Origin: an uncultured Candidatus Nitrosopumilus sp.
GTDB lineage: Archaea > Thermoproteota > Nitrososphaeria > Nitrososphaerales > Nitrosopumilaceae
Assembly (NCBI GenBank): GCA_951812645.1
Contig: CATOSM010000001.1
Span: 661,560-725,559, forward strand
Length of the DNA stretch: 64,000 nucleotides
Direction: 5' to 3'
Both the position numbers and the translations under genes were made by a program. The stretch's first letter is position 1. Every line of letters begins with the position of its first letter. Below the pieces are notes generated by a model. That model was not told the DNA's origin. It was given only the letters and a program-made list of their open reading frames with translations, and made no database searches. This document shows positions 46,788 to 57,412 of the stretch, in pieces.

Positions 46788-47664
46788 CAACTTATCCTAA
46801 AGCCCTCCAATACATCATGACGCATGCCAGATACACAAACCCGAGACAGTTGTCACAGTTCCCTTCGTATCTGACTGCCGTCCCGTGAAGCCCGCACCTG
46901 GGCCAGGCAAGGAACCGCTCTACGACAAACCCTGTCTTGCCATAATTTTTTTGGTTCCTGTTTTGTGCAACGTTCTTTGGGTTCCTTTTGTATGGAATGC
47001 AACGGTCAATCCCATGGGATCCCAGATAGTCTCTGATGCATGCCGCATCGTATCCCCTGTCGGCATACGCTGAGATGATCTCCCGTATCAAACCATCACC
47101 TGCAGGTTCTGAGATGTTCTCTAGCACATCAATGAATTTCGTACTGTCATGGACATTTGCAGGGCTGGCCCTGATTGGGATTGGCAGTCCTGTCCCGTCT
47201 ACTGCAGCGTGAATCTTTGTGCCCAGGATCTTCCTGAACCCGTCATATCCTGTTTTGTCCCCCCTTTTTTGGCGGCAATTGACGATGAATCAATCGATAT
47301 TTTTCCAGGCTGGTTTTTCCCTGCCTGTGTGCGGATTTTATCAGTCCTGACAGAATCCTTTTCCATATTCCCTTTTGCCGCAGCTCTGAGAATCTCAGAT
47401 GCGCGGTGGATTTTGAACCGTATCTGTCCGGCATGTCTGCCCACCTGCAGCCGGTTGTTAGGACAAACAATATTCCGTTGATTGTGTTTCTGTCATTGCA
47501 TCTTGGCCTTCCGGTTTTTGCAGGCTTTGGGAGATGTGATGCAACCGTCTTCCATTGAGTGTCTGACATTTCTTTGTGAATCATGAAAGATACATCGGCA
47601 GGGTCATTCTTGGATCCCGATTGTCATGAATTATTTACAAAATGATCGGTTTTAGGATGAGTTG
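46788..47664 (-). mobile_element. IS5-family insertion sequence, copy C (type 1)
   Basis: 877 bp with terminal repeats CAACTTATCCTAAA and the complement of CAACTCATCCTAAA. Exact 3-bp duplication AAT (46785-46787 and 47665-47667). The right-hand duplication supplies the AT of the ATG of the gene at 47666. Confidence 0.92.
46792..47584 (-). pseudogene. IS5-family transposase, frameshifted (copy C)
   Basis: The only type 1 copy with an undamaged N-terminus (MIHKEMSDTQWKTVASHLPK, GRPRCNDRNTINGILFVL). The frame is lost where GAAAAAATATCG has one A fewer and again at an A6G6 run (about 47260-47275). The C-terminal block 46792-47127 keeps ADRGYD and VVERFLAW. Confidence 0.85.
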
Positions 47665-48444: not shown

Positions 48445-49359
48445 TCACTTGTAATCTTCAAGTGATGAAATCTTTCTGGTTGGAATTTTTTTCCATTTGG
48501 GAATAGACCCACCTTCACGTTCAAATTCAAGTGTAAGCGATTCATCCCTTATGTGTGGAGCTTCCTTCAATCTGGACTTTGCATAGTCCACGTATGTTTT
48601 CTGTATGTCAATCCCAAAATATTTTCTTTTAAGATATTTGGCAACTTTAGTAGTCTGTCCTGCACCGTTAAATGGATCTAAAACCATATCGCCTTCATTT
48701 GAATAAAGATTCAGCAGTCTATAAGGAATTTCTTCAGGGTAAGGACAAGGGTGTTCCAAGAACCCTGGAGGAACGGGTGCAATATGCCACACAGAATTTA
48801 CAATTTCTTTCCAAGTTACATCTTGGTTAATGTTGGTAAAAGCATACTCAAATCTTCTTAACTGATTTTTTCCTTTTCTCATAACTAGAATCATTTCATG
48901 CATAATGTTTGCTCTAAAATATGATGGGTATGGATGCTGAACAAAACTTCCCGCTCTGTTTGCACCCCCAGTTACTTTATGCCATATTATCTCTTCGTGC
49001 AAATTCCATCCCTGTTCATTTAATTTTGAAACAAGTAATGCTGGCAATGGTTCCAAAGTTCCTTTATTGATTTCATTGCCTATCACCATACAACAATATC
49101 CACCTTCTTTGGTAACTCTGTAGACTCCCTTGAATATTCGTGCCATATCCTCTATGTAGTCTGAAACTGTAATTGTTAATTTGCCACGATAATTCTTTTT
49201 TGGGTTATTTCCATGTTCTGCATGCATAGCATAATCAATAGCATTTCTGTAAGGGGGAGAAGTTATAGTAATATCTACAAGATTCTCATCCAACTTTGAA
49301 AGAACGTCAATATTATCTCCACATACAATTTTATTTATTTGAGTCATACTCGTCATCAT
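48445..49359 (-). CDS. DNA methyltransferase, N4-cytosine/N6-adenine type
   Basis: 304 residues. Beta-class order: catalytic motif IV TSPPYRNAIDY (about 33-43), then target-recognition region, then SAM motif I LDPFNGAGQTT (about 234-244). All key residues present, so active DNA methylation is expected. It may methylate for a restriction system or stand alone. Flanked by IS copies C and D in the same orientation. Confidence 0.93.
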   Translation of the reverse strand: MMTSMTQINKIVCGDNIDVLSKLDENLVDITITSPPYRNAIDYAMHAEHGNNPKKNYRGKLTITVSDYIEDMARIFKGVYRVTKEGGYCCMVIGNEINKGTLEPLPALLVSKLNEQGWNLHEEIIWHKVTGGANRAGSFVQHPYPSYFRANIMHEMILVMRKGKNQLRRFEYAFTNINQDVTWKEIVNSVWHIAPVPPGFLEHPCPYPEEIPYRLLNLYSNEGDMVLDPFNGAGQTTKVAKYLKRKYFGIDIQKTYVDYAKSRLKEAPHIRDESLTLEFEREGGSIPKWKKIPTRKISSLEDYK

Positions 49360-49509: not shown

Positions 49510-50386
49510 GAACTTATCCTAAAACCCTCCAATACATCATGACGCATGCCAGATACACAAATCCAAGATAGTTGTCACGGTTCCTTTCGTATCTGACTGC
49601 CGTCCTGTGAAGCCCGCACTTGAGCCAGGCAAGGAACCGCTCTACGACAAACCTTGTCTTGCCATAATTTTTTTGGTTCCTGTTTTGTGCAACGTTCCTT
49701 GGGTTCTTTTTGTATGGAATGCAACAGTCAATCCCATGGGATCTCAGATAGTTTCTGATGTATGCCGCATCGTATCCCCTGTCGGCATACGCTGAGATGA
49801 TCTCCCGTATCAGATCATCATCTGCAGGTTCTGGGATGTTCTCTAACACATCAATGAATTTCGTACTGTCATGGACATTTGCAGGGCTGGCCCTGATTGG
49901 GATTGGCAGTCCTGTCCCGTCTACTGCAACGTGAATCTTTGTGCCCAGGATCTTCCTGAACCCGTCATATCCTGTTTTGTTCCCCCCCTTTTTGGCGGCA
50001 ATTGACGATGAATCAATCGATATTTTTTCCAGGTTGATTTTTCCCTGTCTGTGTGCGGATTTGATCAGTCCTGACAGAATCCTTTTCCACATTCCCTTTT
50101 GCTGCAGCTCTGAGAATCTCAGATGCGCAGTGGATTTTGAACCGTATCTGTCCGGCATGTCTGCCCACCTGCAGCCGGTTGTTAGGACAAACAATGTTCC
50201 GCTGATTGTGTTTCTGCCATTGCATCCTGGCCTTCAGGTTTTTGCAGGCTTTGGCAGATGTGATAGAACCGTTCCATTGGATGTCTGACATTTCTTTGTG
50301 AACCATGAAGGATGCATCGGCAGGGTCATTCTTAGATCCCGATTGTCATGAATTATTTACAAAATGATCGGTTTTAGGATGAGTTG
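49510..50386 (-). mobile_element. IS5-family insertion sequence, copy D (type 1)
   Basis: 877 bp with the type 1 ends and an exact 3-bp duplication TTC (49507-49509 and 50387-50389). Same orientation as copy C, opposite to copy F, which begins 98 bp to the right. Confidence 0.92.
49514..50306 (-). pseudogene. IS5-family transposase, N-terminal frameshift (copy D)
   Basis: A 226-residue frame (49514-50194, MFVLTTGCRWADMPDRYG...) contains all DDE residues: D in ISIDSSSIAA, ADRGYD, VVERFLAWLK. Here the A/G run is A5G7 and in frame. The N-terminus (MVHKEMSDIQW) is in another frame due to the shared 2-nt deletion. If MFVLTT can serve as a start, a shortened enzyme could be made, but it lacks part of the DNA-binding region. 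Confidence 0.85.
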
Positions 50387-50484: not shown

Positions 50485-51354
50485 CAACTCGTCTTAAAAC
50501 TAACCCCTTGGACAATATTTTATGATCATTTGGATCTATGAACCATTAGTTTCCAAACTGTACATGAAATTCACTGAAATAACAGACAGACAATGGGATA
50601 TGATAGAGCCGTTGCTGCCAAAACCTGCCGCCACAGGACGTCCAAGAAGCAATGACCGAACGGTTTTAAATGGAATCGTCTGCGTGCTGGTTTCCGAATG
50701 GAGTGAGATGCCAAAAACATACGGCGATGGTTCAACTGCCAATCCAAGGCCAAGAAGATGGCAGGGGTTTGGAATATGGAAAAGGATTCTGGGACGTGCA
50801 GTCAAATCCGCACACAGACAGGGAAAAATCAACCTGGAAAAATATCGATTGATTCATCGTCAATTCCCTCCAAAAAAGGGGCGACGTGATCGGATTTGAC
50901 GGGTTCAAGAGAGTCACAGGCACGAAATTGCATGTTGCAGTGGATGGTACCGGCCTGCCAGTATCAATCGTAATGAGCCCTGCAAATGAGCATGACAGTA
51001 CGAAATTCGTAGACGTGATGGAATCAGTTTCGGATTTTGCAGATGATTCCATGATGGAACAGATGGTTTCAGTCTATGCAGACAGGGGATACGATTCAAA
51101 GCCAATCCGCAGTCATGCAAGGTCAAGAAACGTCATTCCGTGCATTCCCTTTAGAAAAAACAGCAGGACGGCAGATGATGATGCGGGCAAGGACAGTTAC
51201 AACAGGACAAGGTTTGTAGTGGAGAGGTTCTTTGCCTGGCTGAAAAACGGGTTTTATAGAACAGGAATAAGATGTGAAAGAAACGCAGGAAATTATCTTG
51301 GGCTGGTTAACATTGCGCCATTTTTGATGTATTGCAGTGTTTTAAGATGAGTTG
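50485..51354 (+). mobile_element. IS5-family insertion sequence, copy F (type 2)
   Basis: 870 bp, ends CAACTCGTCTTAAAAC and GTTTTAAGATGAGTTG. Flanks GTA and AAA show no duplication. The right end abuts the truncated DNA polymerase gene in mid-domain, suggesting deletion next to the element. Confidence 0.9.
50564..51350 (+). pseudogene. IS5-family transposase, frameshifted (copy F)
   Basis: N-terminal 112 residues (MKFTEITDRQWDMIEPLLPK...) then a frame change where GAAAAATATCG has one A too few (about 50838). A 4-codon stretch (GCR W region) is also missing near 50693 compared with copy E. The C-terminal half, 50886-51350, retains ADRGYD and VVERFFAWLK. Confidence 0.85.
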
Positions 51355-53610
51355 AAAGAACAAAAGAGATTCAGAGGAAACTTTCTTGACTTGAGAATGA
51401 CAGTACATGCATTAACAGACAAAAAACGTTCTCTAGCAAAAGCATGTAAAGACTTTGAAACGAAATATAAAAAACAGAAAGTAAAGGAACACGGTAAGAT
51501 TTACGGTGTGGAATATATCGAATACTGTATTGCTGATGTAAAGGCAACTTATTCTCTCTACCAAAAAACAAAAGAGGAATTTGATGAATACAAACTAGAT
51601 ATTCCAATTACAAAGGCATACACCCCTGCATCTATAGGAAAGGAACTTTTGAGAAAAATCAAAGTTAAGTCATTTGCAGAGAAGAATTCTGATTTTCCAC
51701 AGAGATTACAGGCCACATAATGAACGCATACTTTGGAGGAAGAACCGAGTGCAAGATTAGAAAAACTCCGATTGAAGCGGATCTGATTGATTTTCTAAGC
51801 ATGTATCCTACAGTATGCACACTTCAGGGATTGTGGAATTTTGTAATTGCCGACAAAATTGAATATTTTGATGCTACTGATGAGATACGGAATTTTATTG
51901 ATTCTTGAGTTAGAAGACATTCAGAACAAGGAGAACTGGAAAAAACTCCAAGGAATAGTGCAGATTAGGCCCAATGATGATGTTCATCCTGTCAGGGCAA
52001 AATATGATGAAAAGATTGTCTGGAATATAGGCGTAAACAGGCTCACTTCAAAGGCTCCGTTATGGTATAGCATTGCTGATGTTGTAGCCTCAAAACTCTA
52101 CACGGGAAGGACTCCAGAAATTACTCAAGGCATGAAATTTGTGCCTAAGAATGTAGAGAAGAACCTAGAGCAGACAGAGATTCACGGAGCCAAGATAGAC
52201 CCCTACAAAGAAGACCTCTTCAAGAGACTAATAGAGCACAGGCAGAAAATAAAAGACAAGAGAGATACGTTTGGTGAGGACACTCCAGAATATGACAACT
52301 ATGAAAGAAATCAGAACGTCATAAAGATAATTACCAACTCGATTAGTTATGGAATCTTTGTCCAGATTTATGTTGAAGAATCCTCAAAGCCCTCGACTGT
52401 TAACGTGTATGGCTTGGAGAGATTTAAAAATGAAAAACCCAAACGAGAGAAACCAGGATTCATGTTCAACCTAATAATTGCTGTCTCAATTACTTCTGCT
52501 GCAAGACTATTGCTTGCAGCAACCGAAGTATTTCTTTCAAGAAGAAATGCAACACATGCATATTGTGACACTGATTCCATGGTAGTTCCTACACAGTACA
52601 GAAAACAGGTACAAGAGTTTTTCCAAAAACTAAACCCGTATGATTTCAAAAGCAAGGAAAATATTGACGTATTCAAGATGGAGAAAGGAAATGTCTTGTT
52701 TTACGGAATCTGCAAAGAGATACTGCCTTTACACCATAGATGATAAAATAGGCGAAATCAAGATTGACAAAAAGAAATACTCATCACACGGATTGGGATA
52801 TCTGCTTGATCCGTTTGCAAAAACAGAAGAAGACCTTGAAAAGGACTGGTCACCCAAAGTCTGGAAAGACATTCTTGATTTTCACTACAAGTTACACGCA
52901 AACAACTTCAAGAAAAATATGAAGGCAAGTATGCAATATCTCAAATTTCCGTATCCAAGCCAAGGATAAGAAACAGACTGAAAAAACTAGACAAAGACAA
53001 AGATTACTATAAACAGATAAAGCCGTTCAACTTTTGCCTTGTCGGATTTCCTACAACAGACAACGAAAAGACAAAAGAGCCGATAAAACCTCTTGCTCCT
53101 TTCAGAAGGCCTGTGCGGGATGTTGTGTTTGATGAGTTTGTTGACCTAAACAGCAAAAGTGGTGATGTTTTGAGAGGACAGCACTACTGGAAAAACATGT
53201 GGAATACAATACGCAATTACATAAACAATCCAGAGTCCAAATTTGACGGAAAAGACGGTGTTTTGGAAAGAAAGCACCTCAACGTGATTTCAATAAAACA
53301 CATAGGAAAAGAGGCAGACGACATTGATTTGGTTCCGGTTCTAGGCGCAAATTTGGATACTTTTGTAATTTATGAAGATGAAAATGCGATAAATACAGAT
53401 TTTGAGGCTAACGCAGAAGAGATTCTGAAACTGGAACCAAAAGAAGTGATAAAGTACAATTTGTCAAGGCCCTCGTTGAAATACATTAAAGAGAAAATTG
53501 AAAGAAAGGAATTTGACCGAATATTGAAGACAACAAAGAATAGATTGTTGGCAGCATTAAGAGAAAAACAGAATCAGCAAGAATCTATCCAACCCACTAT
53601 CAAAACGTAA
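51355..53610 (+). pseudogene. Family B DNA polymerase, decayed and 5'-truncated
   Basis: Five reading-frame pieces in order make one polymerase. Piece 1 (51355-51720): exonuclease end with YIEYCIADVKATYSLY (Exo III). Piece 2: DLIDFLSMYPT (motif A). Piece 3: VIKIITNSISYGIF (motif B) and YCDTDSM (motif C). Pieces 4 and 5: thumb region to 53610. At least four frameshifts or stops separate them. The 5' part is removed by IS copy F. Self-replicating mobile elements often carry such polymerases (inference: remnant of one). Not functional as it stands. Confidence 0.85.
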
Positions 53611-53643: not shown

Positions 53644-54174
53644 CTAATTTGCCATAGCCCATTTTTCACAAAAATAATTCTGAATGGTAGTTTTTGCACA
53701 AAATGGGCAATCCGGATTCTTGATTCTCTTCACGATATGACTCCTGTCTGGCAAAAACAAGTTAAATCTAAGAAAATCTAGATGGTTGTTCATTGGGAAA
53801 TTAATTAATGATGTCGAAAAATGTTTTATGATTTCAGAAATCAAAACTAATCCAGACAGGAACGAAACAAAAGAGACCGTTGCAGCCTTCGTACCCTTAT
53901 CTGTTTTAATCTTTAATTGACCACAAACATTCTGAGTATATACGTCTCTAAAAGGTTCACCGATAAAATTTCTAAATAATTCTATTCTTTTACCATGTTT
54001 TTTCTGCATGTGTTCAAAATGAGACCGTGAGAAATTCCCATTGGTTAAAAGTGTATTTTTTACATCGTCCAAAGGTATTCCTGTTTCTTTGGATATCAGT
54101 TCTTCCTGAGTTAGGTTATTAATCTGATACATACAACATAGACAGGCATTATTTTGGAATTTTATTTGACACAT
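53644..54174 (-). CDS. E1-like enzyme, C-terminal part (separated by a frameshift)
   Basis: 176 residues in the frame after the one holding the adenylation domain. It begins QNNACLCCMYQINNLTQEEL, gives the first CxxC, and ends with DCPFCAKTTIQNYF, the second CxxC. E1/ThiF proteins have just such a pair of CxxC zinc ligands after the adenylation site. Removing one A in the run 54160-54163 joins this frame to the preceding one as SNKFQNNACLCC. It is therefore the missing C-terminus of the E1, not a separate gene. Whether slippage restores it in the cell is unknown. Confidence 0.7.
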   Translation of the reverse strand: MCQIKFQNNACLCCMYQINNLTQEELISKETGIPLDDVKNTLLTNGNFSRSHFEHMQKKHGKRIELFRNFIGEPFRDVYTQNVCGQLKIKTDKGTKAATVSFVSFLSGLVLISEIIKHFSTSLINFPMNNHLDFLRFNLFLPDRSHIVKRIKNPDCPFCAKTTIQNYFCEKWAMAN

Positions 54175-55192
54175 TAGACACGCTATTTCCTGTTGCTCCG
54201 TGAAAAATTATTTTTGGCAATTCATACTGGATTTGATAACGAGTATCATTGTTATCCACAGTAGATACAATTATTGGAAATGAATTTTTGTTATCAAAGT
54301 TTTCAAATTTTACAGGCTGTGAAACTATTTCTAAATCATCAATGGAATATCCCTCGGCGACTTTTGCTTTATTTTTTCCTATTTTATCAGGAAAATAAGT
54401 TAAACATCTTGTACTAGTTTCATCAAATTCATCATCGTCAATTACTGTTATTTTTGCATGAATATTTGGAATTTGGGATAATCCAAAAATAAAGGCGCTG
54501 CCGACTGCACCTGCACCAATCAAAAGAATATCATCATTAATTTTCAGATTGGCTGGGAAATCAAAATTATCCTCATTGAACAAGTATGTTAAAAACGAAA
54601 ATACAAAATCATTTGGATGCTTGGATATTTTCTTTTCATCATGTTCCCTTAATCGAAATATGCTTTTGAAAACTTCTGATGAAGCAAAACATGCTGCACC
54701 CATAGCCCCTATTGGATTTTGATTAGGCTTGTTAAATGATTTCACCACCTTATTACAAGCCAAATGCGATACCCAGCCATCAGAATTGATATTGATCCGT
54801 AAATTTCCCATTGCTGAAGAATTTCCAATTGATACGACTACATCTATCTTTGATGGAAATTCATTAGAAACTTCGACCCCTATTTCTTTTGCAAATTTTT
54901 CAAGTTCTTGTTGCAGGTTAATCCTAGAATTAGGTAAAACAATGTGGATTTTATCGATGAATCTGCACGTCAGATTAACTAGTGTTTTAGCCATAACAAG
55001 ACCATTATCTGTAGAAAGAAGTTTGTCATCTCCAGTTATCACTACCGTTTTTTCACGCAGTTTGTCAATTGCTGAAACTTTGTATTGATTCAGCAACAAA
55101 TTACTGCGATTATGTCTATCGTTCATTAAAATCCCCTTTGATTTGAAATCTATTGCTAATTTGTAATGTGTCCAGTTCATTTCATTTTGCAT
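54149..55192 (-). CDS. E1-like activating enzyme (ThiF/BilC/Cap2-type), N-terminal part
   Basis: 347 residues from ATG 55192, chosen because it overlaps the JAB stop (ATGCAAAATGA); the frame is open further upstream but would run over JAB. Residues about 30-200 form a Rossmann-like domain without a P-loop, as the inactive adenylation domain of Cap2/BilC. Residues 222-347 are the active one: ILLIGAGAVGSA (GAGAVG 226-231), DDDEFDETSTR (ATP/Mg aspartate, arginine 262) and IGKNKAK. It would adenylate the Ubl C-terminus. The frame ends at NKIPK owing to an extra base; the rest is encoded at 53644-54174. Confidence 0.85.
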   Translation of the reverse strand: MQNEMNWTHYKLAIDFKSKGILMNDRHNRSNLLLNQYKVSAIDKLREKTVVITGDDKLLSTDNGLVMAKTLVNLTCRFIDKIHIVLPNSRINLQQELEKFAKEIGVEVSNEFPSKIDVVVSIGNSSAMGNLRININSDGWVSHLACNKVVKSFNKPNQNPIGAMGAACFASSEVFKSIFRLREHDEKKISKHPNDFVFSFLTYLFNEDNFDFPANLKINDDILLIGAGAVGSAFIFGLSQIPNIHAKITVIDDDEFDETSTRCLTYFPDKIGKNKAKVAEGYSIDDLEIVSQPVKFENFDNKNSFPIIVSTVDNNDTRYQIQYELPKIIFHGATGNSVSNVSNKIPK

Positions 55193-55637
55193 TGCCTTCA
55201 TATTCGTAAACTTTACAGTCAGTAAGACAAGATACATTTTTACCAAAAAAGGGAACAATGATGGAAAGAAATCCGAGTTTGTGAGAAATTGGATAATTAT
55301 CATCTGTGAAGGAATGAAAGGCTTCAAAAGGATGAGAATGAATCTGTGCGAACAAAACTTCATTTCTCTCATGAATTAATTTTCCAATCTGAAATGTCGT
55401 TTGTAATGGAACGCGTGCAAACAGTTTCTCATTTTCAAATTCATTGTAACTGTCGGCAAATATTACATTTCTAATTTCACCTTTTTCTTGATTTAATGTT
55501 CCAGTCCAATATGCTATTGCCTCTTTTTGCTGTTCTCCTATTTCTTGAAATTTTGAAATGGTAGACCGAAAGATTGATCCGGGTATTGCTAATTGTTTTA
55601 TTTTTTGTGGAAGTCTATGCATTTTTCTTCCATCCAT
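55182..55637 (-). CDS. JAB/JAMM metalloprotease of the Ubl operon
   Basis: 151 residues from MDGRKMHRLPQKIKQLAIPG (the frame extends upstream over the E2 gene and is rejected). The JAMM zinc site is complete: E39 in KEAIAYW, and HSHPFEAFHSFTDD giving H100, H102, S109 and D112. JAMM proteases of this class process Ubl precursors or remove Ubl from targets. It overlaps the E2-like gene by 23 nt and the E1 gene by about 11 nt. Confidence 0.88.
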   Translation of the reverse strand: MDGRKMHRLPQKIKQLAIPGSIFRSTISKFQEIGEQQKEAIAYWTGTLNQEKGEIRNVIFADSYNEFENEKLFARVPLQTTFQIGKLIHERNEVLFAQIHSHPFEAFHSFTDDNYPISHKLGFLSIIVPFFGKNVSCLTDCKVYEYEGNAK

Positions 55638-56043
55638 TAATTTGTCTAAAAATATGAAACACAGTTTGAGCAAGTGTGTGAAAAGTGGGAGAAAACTGAT
55701 GGTCAGAATGTCTTTTTTTATATTCACGAGTTCCTGCAATGCATATCCATCTTGGATTTTCATTCATTTTGAAGGCCTCTTGTCCATCATCAGGCCAATA
55801 TTCCTTACTATCATCTATTTTTGTTTCAGGATTGACAAAAACATAATCAGCAGGTTGTATTGGAAATTCACCATCACATATGCATTTTAAGAAAAACTCT
55901 TTCTTGTCAGACTTTCTTAAAAGATTGATGTAGATGGTTTTTTCTTCTACTGTTATGCTCTCTTCGTCAATCCAGCCACTCATTACTTTTTTGAGTTTTT
56001 TGGCTTCCTCAAAAAAAGAAATTTCTGCAAGCCTAGCATCCAA
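55615..56043 (-). CDS. E2-like conjugating enzyme of the Ubl operon
   Basis: 142 residues. The C-terminal half fits prokaryotic E2-like proteins: DYVFVNPETKIDDSKEYWPD, then NPRWICIAGTREYKKRH, in which C101 is the candidate thioester cysteine and H112 lies close by. The N-terminal half has a beta meander (YINLLRKSDKKEFFLKCICD). It would receive Ubl from E1 and pass it to a target. A strong Shine-Dalgarno GGAGGT sits about 12 nt before the ATG, rare among the near-leaderless genes here and expected for an internal operon gene. Confidence 0.75.
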   Translation of the reverse strand: MDARLAEISFFEEAKKLKKVMSGWIDEESITVEEKTIYINLLRKSDKKEFFLKCICDGEFPIQPADYVFVNPETKIDDSKEYWPDDGQEAFKMNENPRWICIAGTREYKKRHSDHQFSPTFHTLAQTVFHIFRQINGWKKNA

Positions 56044-56065
56044 ATCCTAGAAACCTCCAATTAGT

Positions 56066-56129
56066 AAAAAAAATATACTACGGTCACCTACTAACGTATG
56101 TTCGAAGTACACTTTTGGGACCGTAGTAT
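56066..56129 (-). terminator. Hairpin with T-tract between Ubl and E2-like genes
   Basis: On the minus strand ATACTACGGTC (56129-56119) can pair perfectly with GACCGTAGTAT (56085-56075), 11 bp with a 33-nt loop. T8 follows (56073-56066). It is 16 nt after the Ubl stop and 23 nt before the E2 start. It can act as a partial terminator or attenuator that makes more Ubl mRNA than enzyme mRNA. Confidence 0.65.
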
Positions 56130-56144
56130 TATTAGATTTCATAG

Positions 56145-56435
56145 TCACCCTACCTGTTGCTCTGTTCCTAACCAGATTGTGTCTTTGTTTTCAACCCCTT
56201 CATCAACAAGGGTTTTGTTGTCGTCAAACGGCCTAAAGGAATCATTTTTCATTTCAGCCAACCTGTATGTAACCCCAGGTGGAGGACAGATTCCGAACCG
56301 TTCTAGTGCTTCTTTCTTTGCGTCTCCGAGAATAGTCTGTTTGAACTTGAATCTATCCTCGTCACCTTCTATGGTTTTGATGGTGACATGTATTGTCTTT
56401 GGTATTTGTTCTGCTTTAGACTGCATTATCTCCAA
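56145..56435 (-). CDS. Ubiquitin-like protein (Ubl) of the conjugation operon
   Basis: 96 residues with the beta-grasp pattern: strand IPKTIHVTIKTIEGDEDRFKF, helix DAKKEALERFG, then PPPGVTYRLAEMKND..RPFDDNKTLVDEGVENKD and TIWLGTEQQVG. It ends in a single glycine directly before the stop, so it needs no or little processing; classical ubiquitin ends GG. First gene of the minus-strand operon Ubl-E2-JAB-E1. It may be attached to proteins by the neighbours. Confidence 0.8.
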   Translation of the reverse strand: MEIMQSKAEQIPKTIHVTIKTIEGDEDRFKFKQTILGDAKKEALERFGICPPPGVTYRLAEMKNDSFRPFDDNKTLVDEGVENKDTIWLGTEQQVG

Positions 56436-56505
56436 TTTCTCATACTTCGTTATAAGTGTATAATAAAAAACAAAGTTGTATTATTTACAAAGTACTATAA
56501 ATAAT
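56436..56505. promoter_or_regulatory. Divergent promoter of the Ubl operon and its neighbour genes
   Basis: 70 bp AT-rich spacer between the Ubl start (minus) and the winged-helix start (plus). Plus-strand TATA-like TTGTATTATTT lies about 30 nt before ATG 56506. On the minus strand TTATTATACACTTATAACG precedes the Ubl. The short shared spacer suggests co-regulation. Confidence 0.55.
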
Positions 56506-56961
56506 ATGAGTAATCATAGTATTTTGACCACTTTGGAAAAGAAAGGAAATAATAGTAAACAAAACCCACTTTATTGTAGAAAGCGTATGAGTCAATTATT
56601 TGATAATAAAATGTTTGAAGAATCACCATTCAATGATATTTTTAAAAAATCAAATTTTTCTGATTTACCTGCTCAGATATTTCATCCATACAAATTAATG
56701 ATTATGGTGGCATTGAGAAGATTTGGAGCATTAGATTTTCCAGCACTTCGAAATGGAATCAGGATTAACAGTGACGGTAATTTGGCCAATCATCTAAGAG
56801 TTCTAGAAGACTTGGAAATCATACAATATAGAAAAGAATTCGAAGGAAGAAAGCCAAAGACGTTTTACGAACTCACCGACAAAGGCAAAAATGAGTTACA
56901 AAGACTTGTGTTTTACTTCACAGATTTCATAAAAGACGTAGGGTCGTATGAAAGTACGTGA
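56506..56961 (+). CDS. Winged-helix regulator divergent from the Ubl operon
   Basis: 151 residues from ATG 56506 (open to 56476). Winged helix at about 60-140: MIMVALRRFGALDFPALRNG, DGNLANHLRVLEDLEIIQYR, FYELTDKGKNELQRLV, like the HTH_34/MarR-type domains of archaeal regulators. Its location makes it the likely regulator of the Ubl operon. It overlaps the next gene by 14 nt. Confidence 0.78.
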   Translation: MSNHSILTTLEKKGNNSKQNPLYCRKRMSQLFDNKMFEESPFNDIFKKSNFSDLPAQIFHPYKLMIMVALRRFGALDFPALRNGIRINSDGNLANHLRVLEDLEIIQYRKEFEGRKPKTFYELTDKGKNELQRLVFYFTDFIKDVGSYEST

Positions 56962-57412
56962 TAAATTAATCCAACTATATGGAGGTCTTGGAGTAACTCC
57001 TAGTTTGGAGAATTTTTCTAGTCGCAAACAATTACAGAAGTTAACTTATCTGGTAGAAGCATTTGGGATTTTCTTAGGATTTCGTTTTAGTTGGTACCTG
57101 CACGGGCCTTATGATAGAAAACTAACCGCCGTCCTTTATGATGATAATAGAGACGAATCAGATAGAGATGTATTGGATACTTTTCCTAATGAGAAAAAAA
57201 TTCTAAAAAAACTAAAAGAATTTCTTGGAAGGGACATTCATTCAAGTAGAACTTTGGAGTTAATCGTGTCTTTACATTATTTAGATTACATTGGACAGAA
57301 ACAGGAAATGTCTGATGAACAAATCATTAATAGATTGATAGAACTAAAACCACAATACACCAAGGATGAATCAAAATATTATCTAAAAAGAATTCGAGAA
57401 TACCTTCAATGA
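56948..57412 (+). CDS. YwgA/Panacea-like protein
   Basis: 154 residues. SSRKQLQKLTYLVEAFGIFL followed by FRFSWYLHGPYDRKLTAVLY is the characteristic core of YwgA-type proteins (K-LQK-YL..G......F..Y..GPY...L). These relate to the Panacea antitoxin/adaptor domain in defence loci. Operon with the winged-helix gene, facing away from the Ubl genes. Function unproved. Confidence 0.6.
   Translation: MKVRDKLIQLYGGLGVTPSLENFSSRKQLQKLTYLVEAFGIFLGFRFSWYLHGPYDRKLTAVLYDDNRDESDRDVLDTFPNEKKILKKLKEFLGRDIHSSRTLELIVSLHYLDYIGQKQEMSDEQIINRLIELKPQYTKDESKYYLKRIREYLQ

Follow-up and report, generated by a model that had tools for sequence, protein, structure and literature searches.

Layout of the locus

The window considered here, which is the whole analysed stretch of 64,000 nucleotides from contig CATOSM010000001.1 of an uncultured Candidatus Nitrosopumilus sp., carries on its minus strand a row of genes for ubiquitin-like conjugation, transcribed in the order ubiquitin-like protein (Ubl), E2 conjugating enzyme, JAB/JAMM protease and E1 activating enzyme, with the genes for a winged-helix protein and a protein of 154 residues running divergently on the other side. 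The source genome is represented by a single assembly (2.2 Mb, 7 contigs, 99.64% complete, 8.79% estimated contamination). An original prediction, made from the letters of the window, had described these genes as a complete conjugation operon in an accessory region of an archaeon of the Nitrososphaeria kind. Both the host and the list of parts—a Ubl ending in Gly, an E2 with C101, a JAB protease with its catalytic set and an E1, all on the minus strand—are borne out. The features are as follows, the start of E1 part 1 having been set by aligning it with relatives.

56145..56435, minus strand: BilA-like single-domain Ubl, 96 residues, C-terminal Gly (BilA 8u38_A; profile A4); intact
55615..56043, minus strand: BilB-like E2, 142 residues, Cys101 (alignment, PDB profile, fold); intact
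55182..55637, minus strand: BilC-like JAB/JAMM protease (PADLOC BilC; PDB 8tyx_B); in-frame stop before the C-terminal tail
54149..55126, minus strand: BilD-like E1, part 1, with inactive and active adenylation domains, up to the zinc CxxC (PADLOC BilD; PDB 8tyz_A)
53644..54174, minus strand: BilD-like E1, part 2, in another frame, carrying both zinc CxxC motifs and, between them, the catalytic-Cys (xCG) region
56476..56961, plus strand: winged-helix regulator (HTH_34/PadR-like), gene 1 of the divergent pair (Pfam HTH_34, 6.2e-14); intact
56948..57412, plus strand: protein like the C-terminal domain of DarG (DarG-C-like), 154 residues, gene 2 of the divergent pair; open reading frame (ORF) intact
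51370..53388, plus strand: relic of a DNA polymerase gene on the operon flank, with 11 in-frame stops (phrog DNA polymerase, 5.4e-12, at 51847-52743)

The 3' end of the winged-helix ORF overlaps the DarG-C-like ORF by 14 nucleotides.

Identity of the four parts and of the operon type

The four gene products are of the BilA, B, C and D types by sequence and fold searches, and the closest solved relative of every one of them is a protein of the Bil (BilABCD, bacterial ISG15-like) system. The likeness is strong for the E1 and the JAB protease and, by sequence alone, weak for the Ubl and the E2. Against the solved structures, E1 part 1 finds BilD 8tyz_A at an expectation value (E) of 9.6e-10, with the sole other match at 0.89, and the JAB protein finds BilC 8tyx_B at 7.7e-15 as its only match at E up to 1; PADLOC likewise assigns them to BilD (5e-17) and BilC (6.6e-16). 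Taken over both of its reading frames the E1 has the makeup of BilD, i.e., two adenylation domains, of the ThiF type, together with a Cys domain and zinc cysteines, the Cys and zinc motifs lying in the second ORF. The JAMM set of the protease is full (E39, H100, H102, S109 and D112, numbered from 55637).

For the window's E2 and Ubl no PADLOC match was returned; the operon of a divergent relative (L002) is recognised as BilA at 8.5e-6, BilB at 7.2e-5 and BilC at 4.3e-18. The single Ubl sequence finds BilA 8u38_A at a weak E of 0.038, while a profile of seven archaeal Ubls (A4) matches BilA chains at 2.9e-10 and 9.1e-7 and polyubiquitin at 4.7e-38, a value summed over nine repeats, single ubiquitins scoring about 1e-4. 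The E2 profile finds BilB in the PDB at a weak 0.03, in a match that spans the Cys motif. The AlphaFold model of the E2 (predicted local distance difference test score 84.9) has BilB 8tz0_C as its top Foldseek match in the PDB (E 1.9e-3, template modeling score 0.65), and among the best 50 of 562 Foldseek rows nearly all are UBC E2s (eukaryotic) or their complexes. Thus, the beta-grasp and E2 folds that had been predicted for the 96- and 142-residue proteins both hold. Cys101 of the E2 is shared by all 17 rows of the alignment and H112 is kept in at least 90% of them. The CEHH motif, which has been described in full for one BilB (PMC11354881), is partial here: the Cys is kept, the Glu is found in 13 of the 17 rows, and the position of the His two residues past the Glu is taken by Lys in 16. 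In the E2 of L002 the C, E and H are all present (Metal_CEHH, 3.7e-13).

In the Bil naming, BilA is the Ubl, BilB the E2, BilC the JAB protein and BilD the E1 (PMC11354881), so that the order of the locus equals BilABCD. The same order is seen in an operon on the NGR234 plasmid (Ubl, a putative metal-binding protein that is the E2, Mov34/MPN protein, E1), which the archaeal E1 P0020 retrieves at 25.7% identity over 98% of the query. The statement of the original prediction that the order departs from BilABCD is therefore mistaken, while its recognition of the Bil list of parts was right; because both the order and the nearest relatives are those of Bil, the proposal that it represents a system of an undescribed type does not hold. 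The NGR234 operon is type 6c of Iyer et al. 2006, alike in its four genes and their order and listed at that time for alphaproteobacteria only (PMC1779556); an assignment of the window locus to type 6d was dropped, as the operon that the archaeal E1 retrieves is of type 6c. Unlike those of the window, the divergent neighbours of the NGR234 operon carry the annotations stability protein and toxin of the VapC family.

The likeness to Bil extends to the Ubl, as the PDB holds BilA chains of 98–100 residues, as short as that of the window. What sets the locus apart from bacterial Bil is the archaeal host, the partial CEHH motif, the winged-helix/DarG-C-like pair that some of the loci have and the broken state of the window copy. 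In type II of the cyclic-oligonucleotide-based antiphage signalling systems (CBASS; Cap2/Cap3) the E2 and E1 are fused into one protein, whereas the window E2 is a separate gene and the PADLOC E1-E2 models reach at best 3.6e-4 as against 5e-17 for BilD. With the ubiquitin operon of Caldiarchaeum the locus shares an archaeal Ubl, E1, E2 and JAMM enzyme (PMC11354881); that cluster also has a RING E3 (PMC11354881), whereas the E1, E2 and JAB protein of the window are nearest to Bil, no RING search having been made.

Lesions and probable decay of the copy in the window

The operon is not complete, contrary to what had been supposed. Both adenylation domains ascribed to the E1, one inactive and one active, are indeed present in part 1, but the gene is split by a frameshift, and the JAB gene is stopped before its C-terminal tail, neither lesion being mentioned in the original prediction. 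The two E1 ORFs, in different frames, match consecutive segments of relatives that are single ORFs, with part 1 ending just short of the first zinc CxxC. This CxxC block lies inside the same ORF in 44 of 46 E1 database matches (all but the window's own product and P0061), and the catalytic Cys does so in 42 of the 46, since P0052 and P0055 also stop short of it. A programmed frameshift was considered and is not favoured, since relatives cross the junction as one ORF. At the position of the JAB stop, Trp is found in 8 and Phe in 2 of the 10 other loci; all 10 keep the C-terminal tail beyond it, and the JAB protein of L003 aligns in frame through the stop (62.6% identity over 155 columns). The window E1 also is without one residue at an L-N-R site that all 20 rows of E1 alignment A2 have in common. 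These lesions, read from sequence, suggest that the operon is a decayed Bil copy, predicted to be probably inactive for conjugation.

Signs of decay are also seen beyond the operon. The neighbouring polymerase frame, which from its motifs we take to be of family B, has its 11 stops in 673 codons, and an open homologue of 960 codons is found elsewhere in the same genome. Broken transposase-like reading frames, named by eye, lie around the operon region at window positions 46792-47584, 49514-50306 and 50522-51350, and a DNA methyltransferase gene (48445-49359; phrog_67, 2.4e-42) lies on the left side of the accessory region.

Distribution and phylogeny of the archaeal operons

Unbroken Bil-type relatives occur in other Nitrososphaeria archaea. 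A search with the E1 in a sample of 400 genomes from the class, with matches accepted at E up to 5.1e-27, found a Bil-type E1 with an adjoining JAB gene in 11 genomes, the window's own counted; the next E1 matches, near 3e-20, were taken for MoeB/ThiF-type background without further test. The JAB gene directly precedes the E1 in all ten other loci, and in nine of them Ubl- and E2-sized ORFs lie ahead in the same order, the tenth being interrupted by a contig end; the neighbourhood is thus kept elsewhere. At the level of the phylum, 3 of 398 genomes gave matches at E up to 1e-25, all from the window's own family. Across the genus the E2 profile found 1 of 95 genomes, its own only, and yet one genome of the same genus (G114) has a Bil locus whose E1 belongs to a different branch. 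A scan of genome contigs with the window E2 found the single locus L003, which is identical to L034 (RHCX01000053.1), and scans of viral contigs with the E2 and E1 profiles gave no relatives.

In an E1 tree with 29 rows, several of them on long branches and of unsure placement, the archaeal rows fall in several groups, two of which include the NGR234 row or that of a Natrinema plasmid. A search of plasmids retrieved 17 records, i.e., 13 from rhizobia, three from haloarchaea and one from Deinococcus. The Natrinema plasmid (L093 2756-6389) has a Bil-type operon with a divergent gene for a DUF6293 family protein, and the Deinococcus plasmid (L095 1241-6503) one with a divergent XRE regulator and a HipA-family kinase. 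The E1 of L003/L034 diverges from its relatives at the C-terminus, where it has an unrelated end (L034 8100-8277) and may be damaged; a relative that is 93% identical, P0019, is normal.

The divergent winged-helix/DarG-C-like pair

The divergent pair stands at the front of the operon in 5 of the 11 Bil loci, on at least 3 supported E1 branches, and is shared, e.g., by the window, L034 and L042. Measured against the polymerase gene, the six-gene block of operon and pair as a whole runs in opposite directions in the window and in L034. DarG-C-like proteins are found in 76 of the 400 class genomes, and 11 of 45 non-own database matches share their longest-contig size with an E1 or E2 match, where 0.15 would be expected with jittered lengths. 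At 35 other DarG-C-like loci examined, a similar winged-helix partner was seen in only two, one of them near another E1-like gene. Inverted repeats ahead of the operon are AT-rich and their sequence is not conserved.

The 154-residue partner has no N-terminal macrodomain: its NCBIfam match covers the C-terminal part of DarG alone (model positions 183-228 of 338), and its model has the DarG C-terminal fold, matched over residues 1-152. In DarG this domain blocks DarT through mimicry of single-stranded DNA (PMC11481870; a DarG structure is cited in PMC12170906). The archaeal DarG-C-like proteins differ from that antitoxin in being not acidic (isoelectric points 7.0 to 9.7) as well as in the missing macrodomain; on grounds of charge, mimicry of DNA by the partner is disfavoured and neutralisation by protein–protein contact is favoured over it. 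A comparison with the Panacea (DUF4065) antitoxins (PMC8832971), made by sequence model, gave a match to the Pfam Panacea model in none of 26 partner-family members at E up to 1.

Bacterial immune operons offer parallels to the position of the pair: CapK+CapS adjoin the promoters of Bil, Bub and CBASS operons among others, and CapW and CapH+CapP those of Bub and CBASS operons among others (PMC13373217). Like these, the pair consists of candidate regulatory genes beside the promoter of an immune operon; unlike these, which involve a kinase, a WYL domain or a protease, it has a partner resembling the DarG C-terminal domain, and its control is argued from position. By analogy with the bacterial controllers, the pair is probably a controller of the Bil operon. 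A bolder proposal, which we advance tentatively as it may well prove wrong, is that the pair represents an unreported class of immune-operon controllers tied to archaeal Ubl conjugation, in which a fold of the antitoxin type was recruited repeatedly and might silence Bil for as long as no virus disturbs it, as a guarded switch akin to toxin-antitoxin systems.

Several other arrangements were observed around these proteins. One or two small ORFs lie between the Ubl and the pair at L037 11825-12028, L042 2490-3184 and L043 11858-12370; each set has a hydrophobic stretch of membrane-helix length and may be a membrane component of the operon, no such ORFs being present in the window and L034. At L075 82-924 and 2150-3749 (genome G343), winged-helix and DarG-C-like parts are fused into one protein close to genes for DUF6791-ThiF and DUF6527, which suggests that the control-like module also accompanies E1-like loci of a second type. 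Sets of three genes, for a DarG-C-like protein, a protein some 115 residues long (without a Pfam match at L080) and a ParE-type toxin, are seen at L080 377-1613, L081 8099-9245 and L084 8648-9782, the ParE match having been tested for L080 and made by eye for L081 and L084. Of these, L081 belongs to the same genome as the window (C1, near 967 kb), and the sets are possibly an archaeal toxin-antitoxin family.

Proposed mechanism and alternative explanations

We consider it likely that the window holds a decayed archaeal copy of BilABCD, predicted to be inactive and bordered by a divergent pair that would control such operons where they are unbroken. Bacteria use Bil as a tagging system against viruses, and an unbroken archaeal operon would, by this analogy, have an antiviral role too. 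The E1 of an unbroken relative would then adenylate the C-terminal Gly of the Ubl and load it on the Cys of its xCG motif, from where it would pass to the Cys of the E2 (Cys101 in the window). The E2 would then join the Ubl to a target, from which the JAB enzyme could remove it again. As bacterial Bil tags the central tail fibre of phages (PMC12948488), the target is probably a structural protein of a virus. The winged-helix protein might repress both arms by binding to the DNA that separates them, with the DarG-C-like protein as its partner, which on infection might hold back or release either the winged-helix protein or a Bil component. The analysis itself establishes what the four genes are, how they are ordered, their lesions and the repeated presence of the pair ahead of archaeal Bil operons, whereas inactivity, target, antiviral function and control by the pair are deduced. 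Certain observations weigh against this picture: the pair is absent from the front of 6 of the 11 Bil loci, small ORFs intervene at 3 of the 5 others, and other archaeal Bil E1s vary at the L-N-R site (several have QR, and L042 has no R), for which reason the residue lost there is the weaker evidence of decay.

The same gaps in the occurrence of the pair, and the intervening ORFs, would also suit its being an independent regulatory or toxin-antitoxin-like hitchhiker in the same island, outside Bil. The wide spread of DarG-C-like proteins in the class and the three loci at which such a gene sits in an apparent ParE-type toxin set, the ParE match having been tested on one, also speak for such a hitchhiker. 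Its identical divergent position at 5 loci on several supported E1 branches, the excess of shared longest-contig sizes, the rarity of such a winged-helix partner at other DarG-C-like loci and the inversion of the six genes as one block all speak against it, and on balance we regard it as unlikely, if deserving of serious attention. It is rather improbable that the operon still works, either by frameshifting that joins the E1 halves or with its lesions being assembly errors, and with the shorter JAB protein active. The intact Ubl, E2, winged-helix and DarG-C-like ORFs, the position of every JAMM residue ahead of the JAB stop, the single assembly and its estimated contamination are in its favour. 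However, an indel error can account neither for the in-frame JAB stop nor for the 11 in-frame stops of the polymerase, the E1 of relatives is a single ORF across the junction, and a residue is missing at the L-N-R site as well.

The remaining alternatives concern the kind of system. A defence system other than Bil, to which the absence of PADLOC matches for the window's E2 and Ubl might point, is very improbable in the face of a gene order the same as BilABCD and of Bil proteins as the nearest solved relatives of all four parts. Even less credence can be given to a metabolic operon for a sulphur carrier or cofactor with ThiS/MoaD-like chemistry: the ThiF-type adenylation domain and the C-terminal Gly of the Ubl would suit it, whereas the operons for thiamine and the molybdenum cofactor are without E2 and JAB genes in the survey of Iyer et al. 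(PMC1779556) and the distribution of the locus is patchy.

Significance

The Bil kind of system is itself already known; new is the divergent winged-helix/DarG-C-like pair at the front of archaeal Bil operons. The main text of a survey from 2026 that covers 7747 archaeal genomes contains neither 'Bil' nor 'ubiquitin' (PMC12988326), and among the open-licence papers surveyed no title or abstract opening concerned Bil in Nitrososphaeria. Bil has been described as bacterial. The presence of Nitrososphaeria operons in several E1 lineages, alongside haloarchaeal and rhizobial plasmid copies, suggests movement of these systems between domains, with the decayed copy in the window providing an example of a Bil system being lost. 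The recurring partner pair, in turn, makes the restraint of such conjugation systems directly testable.

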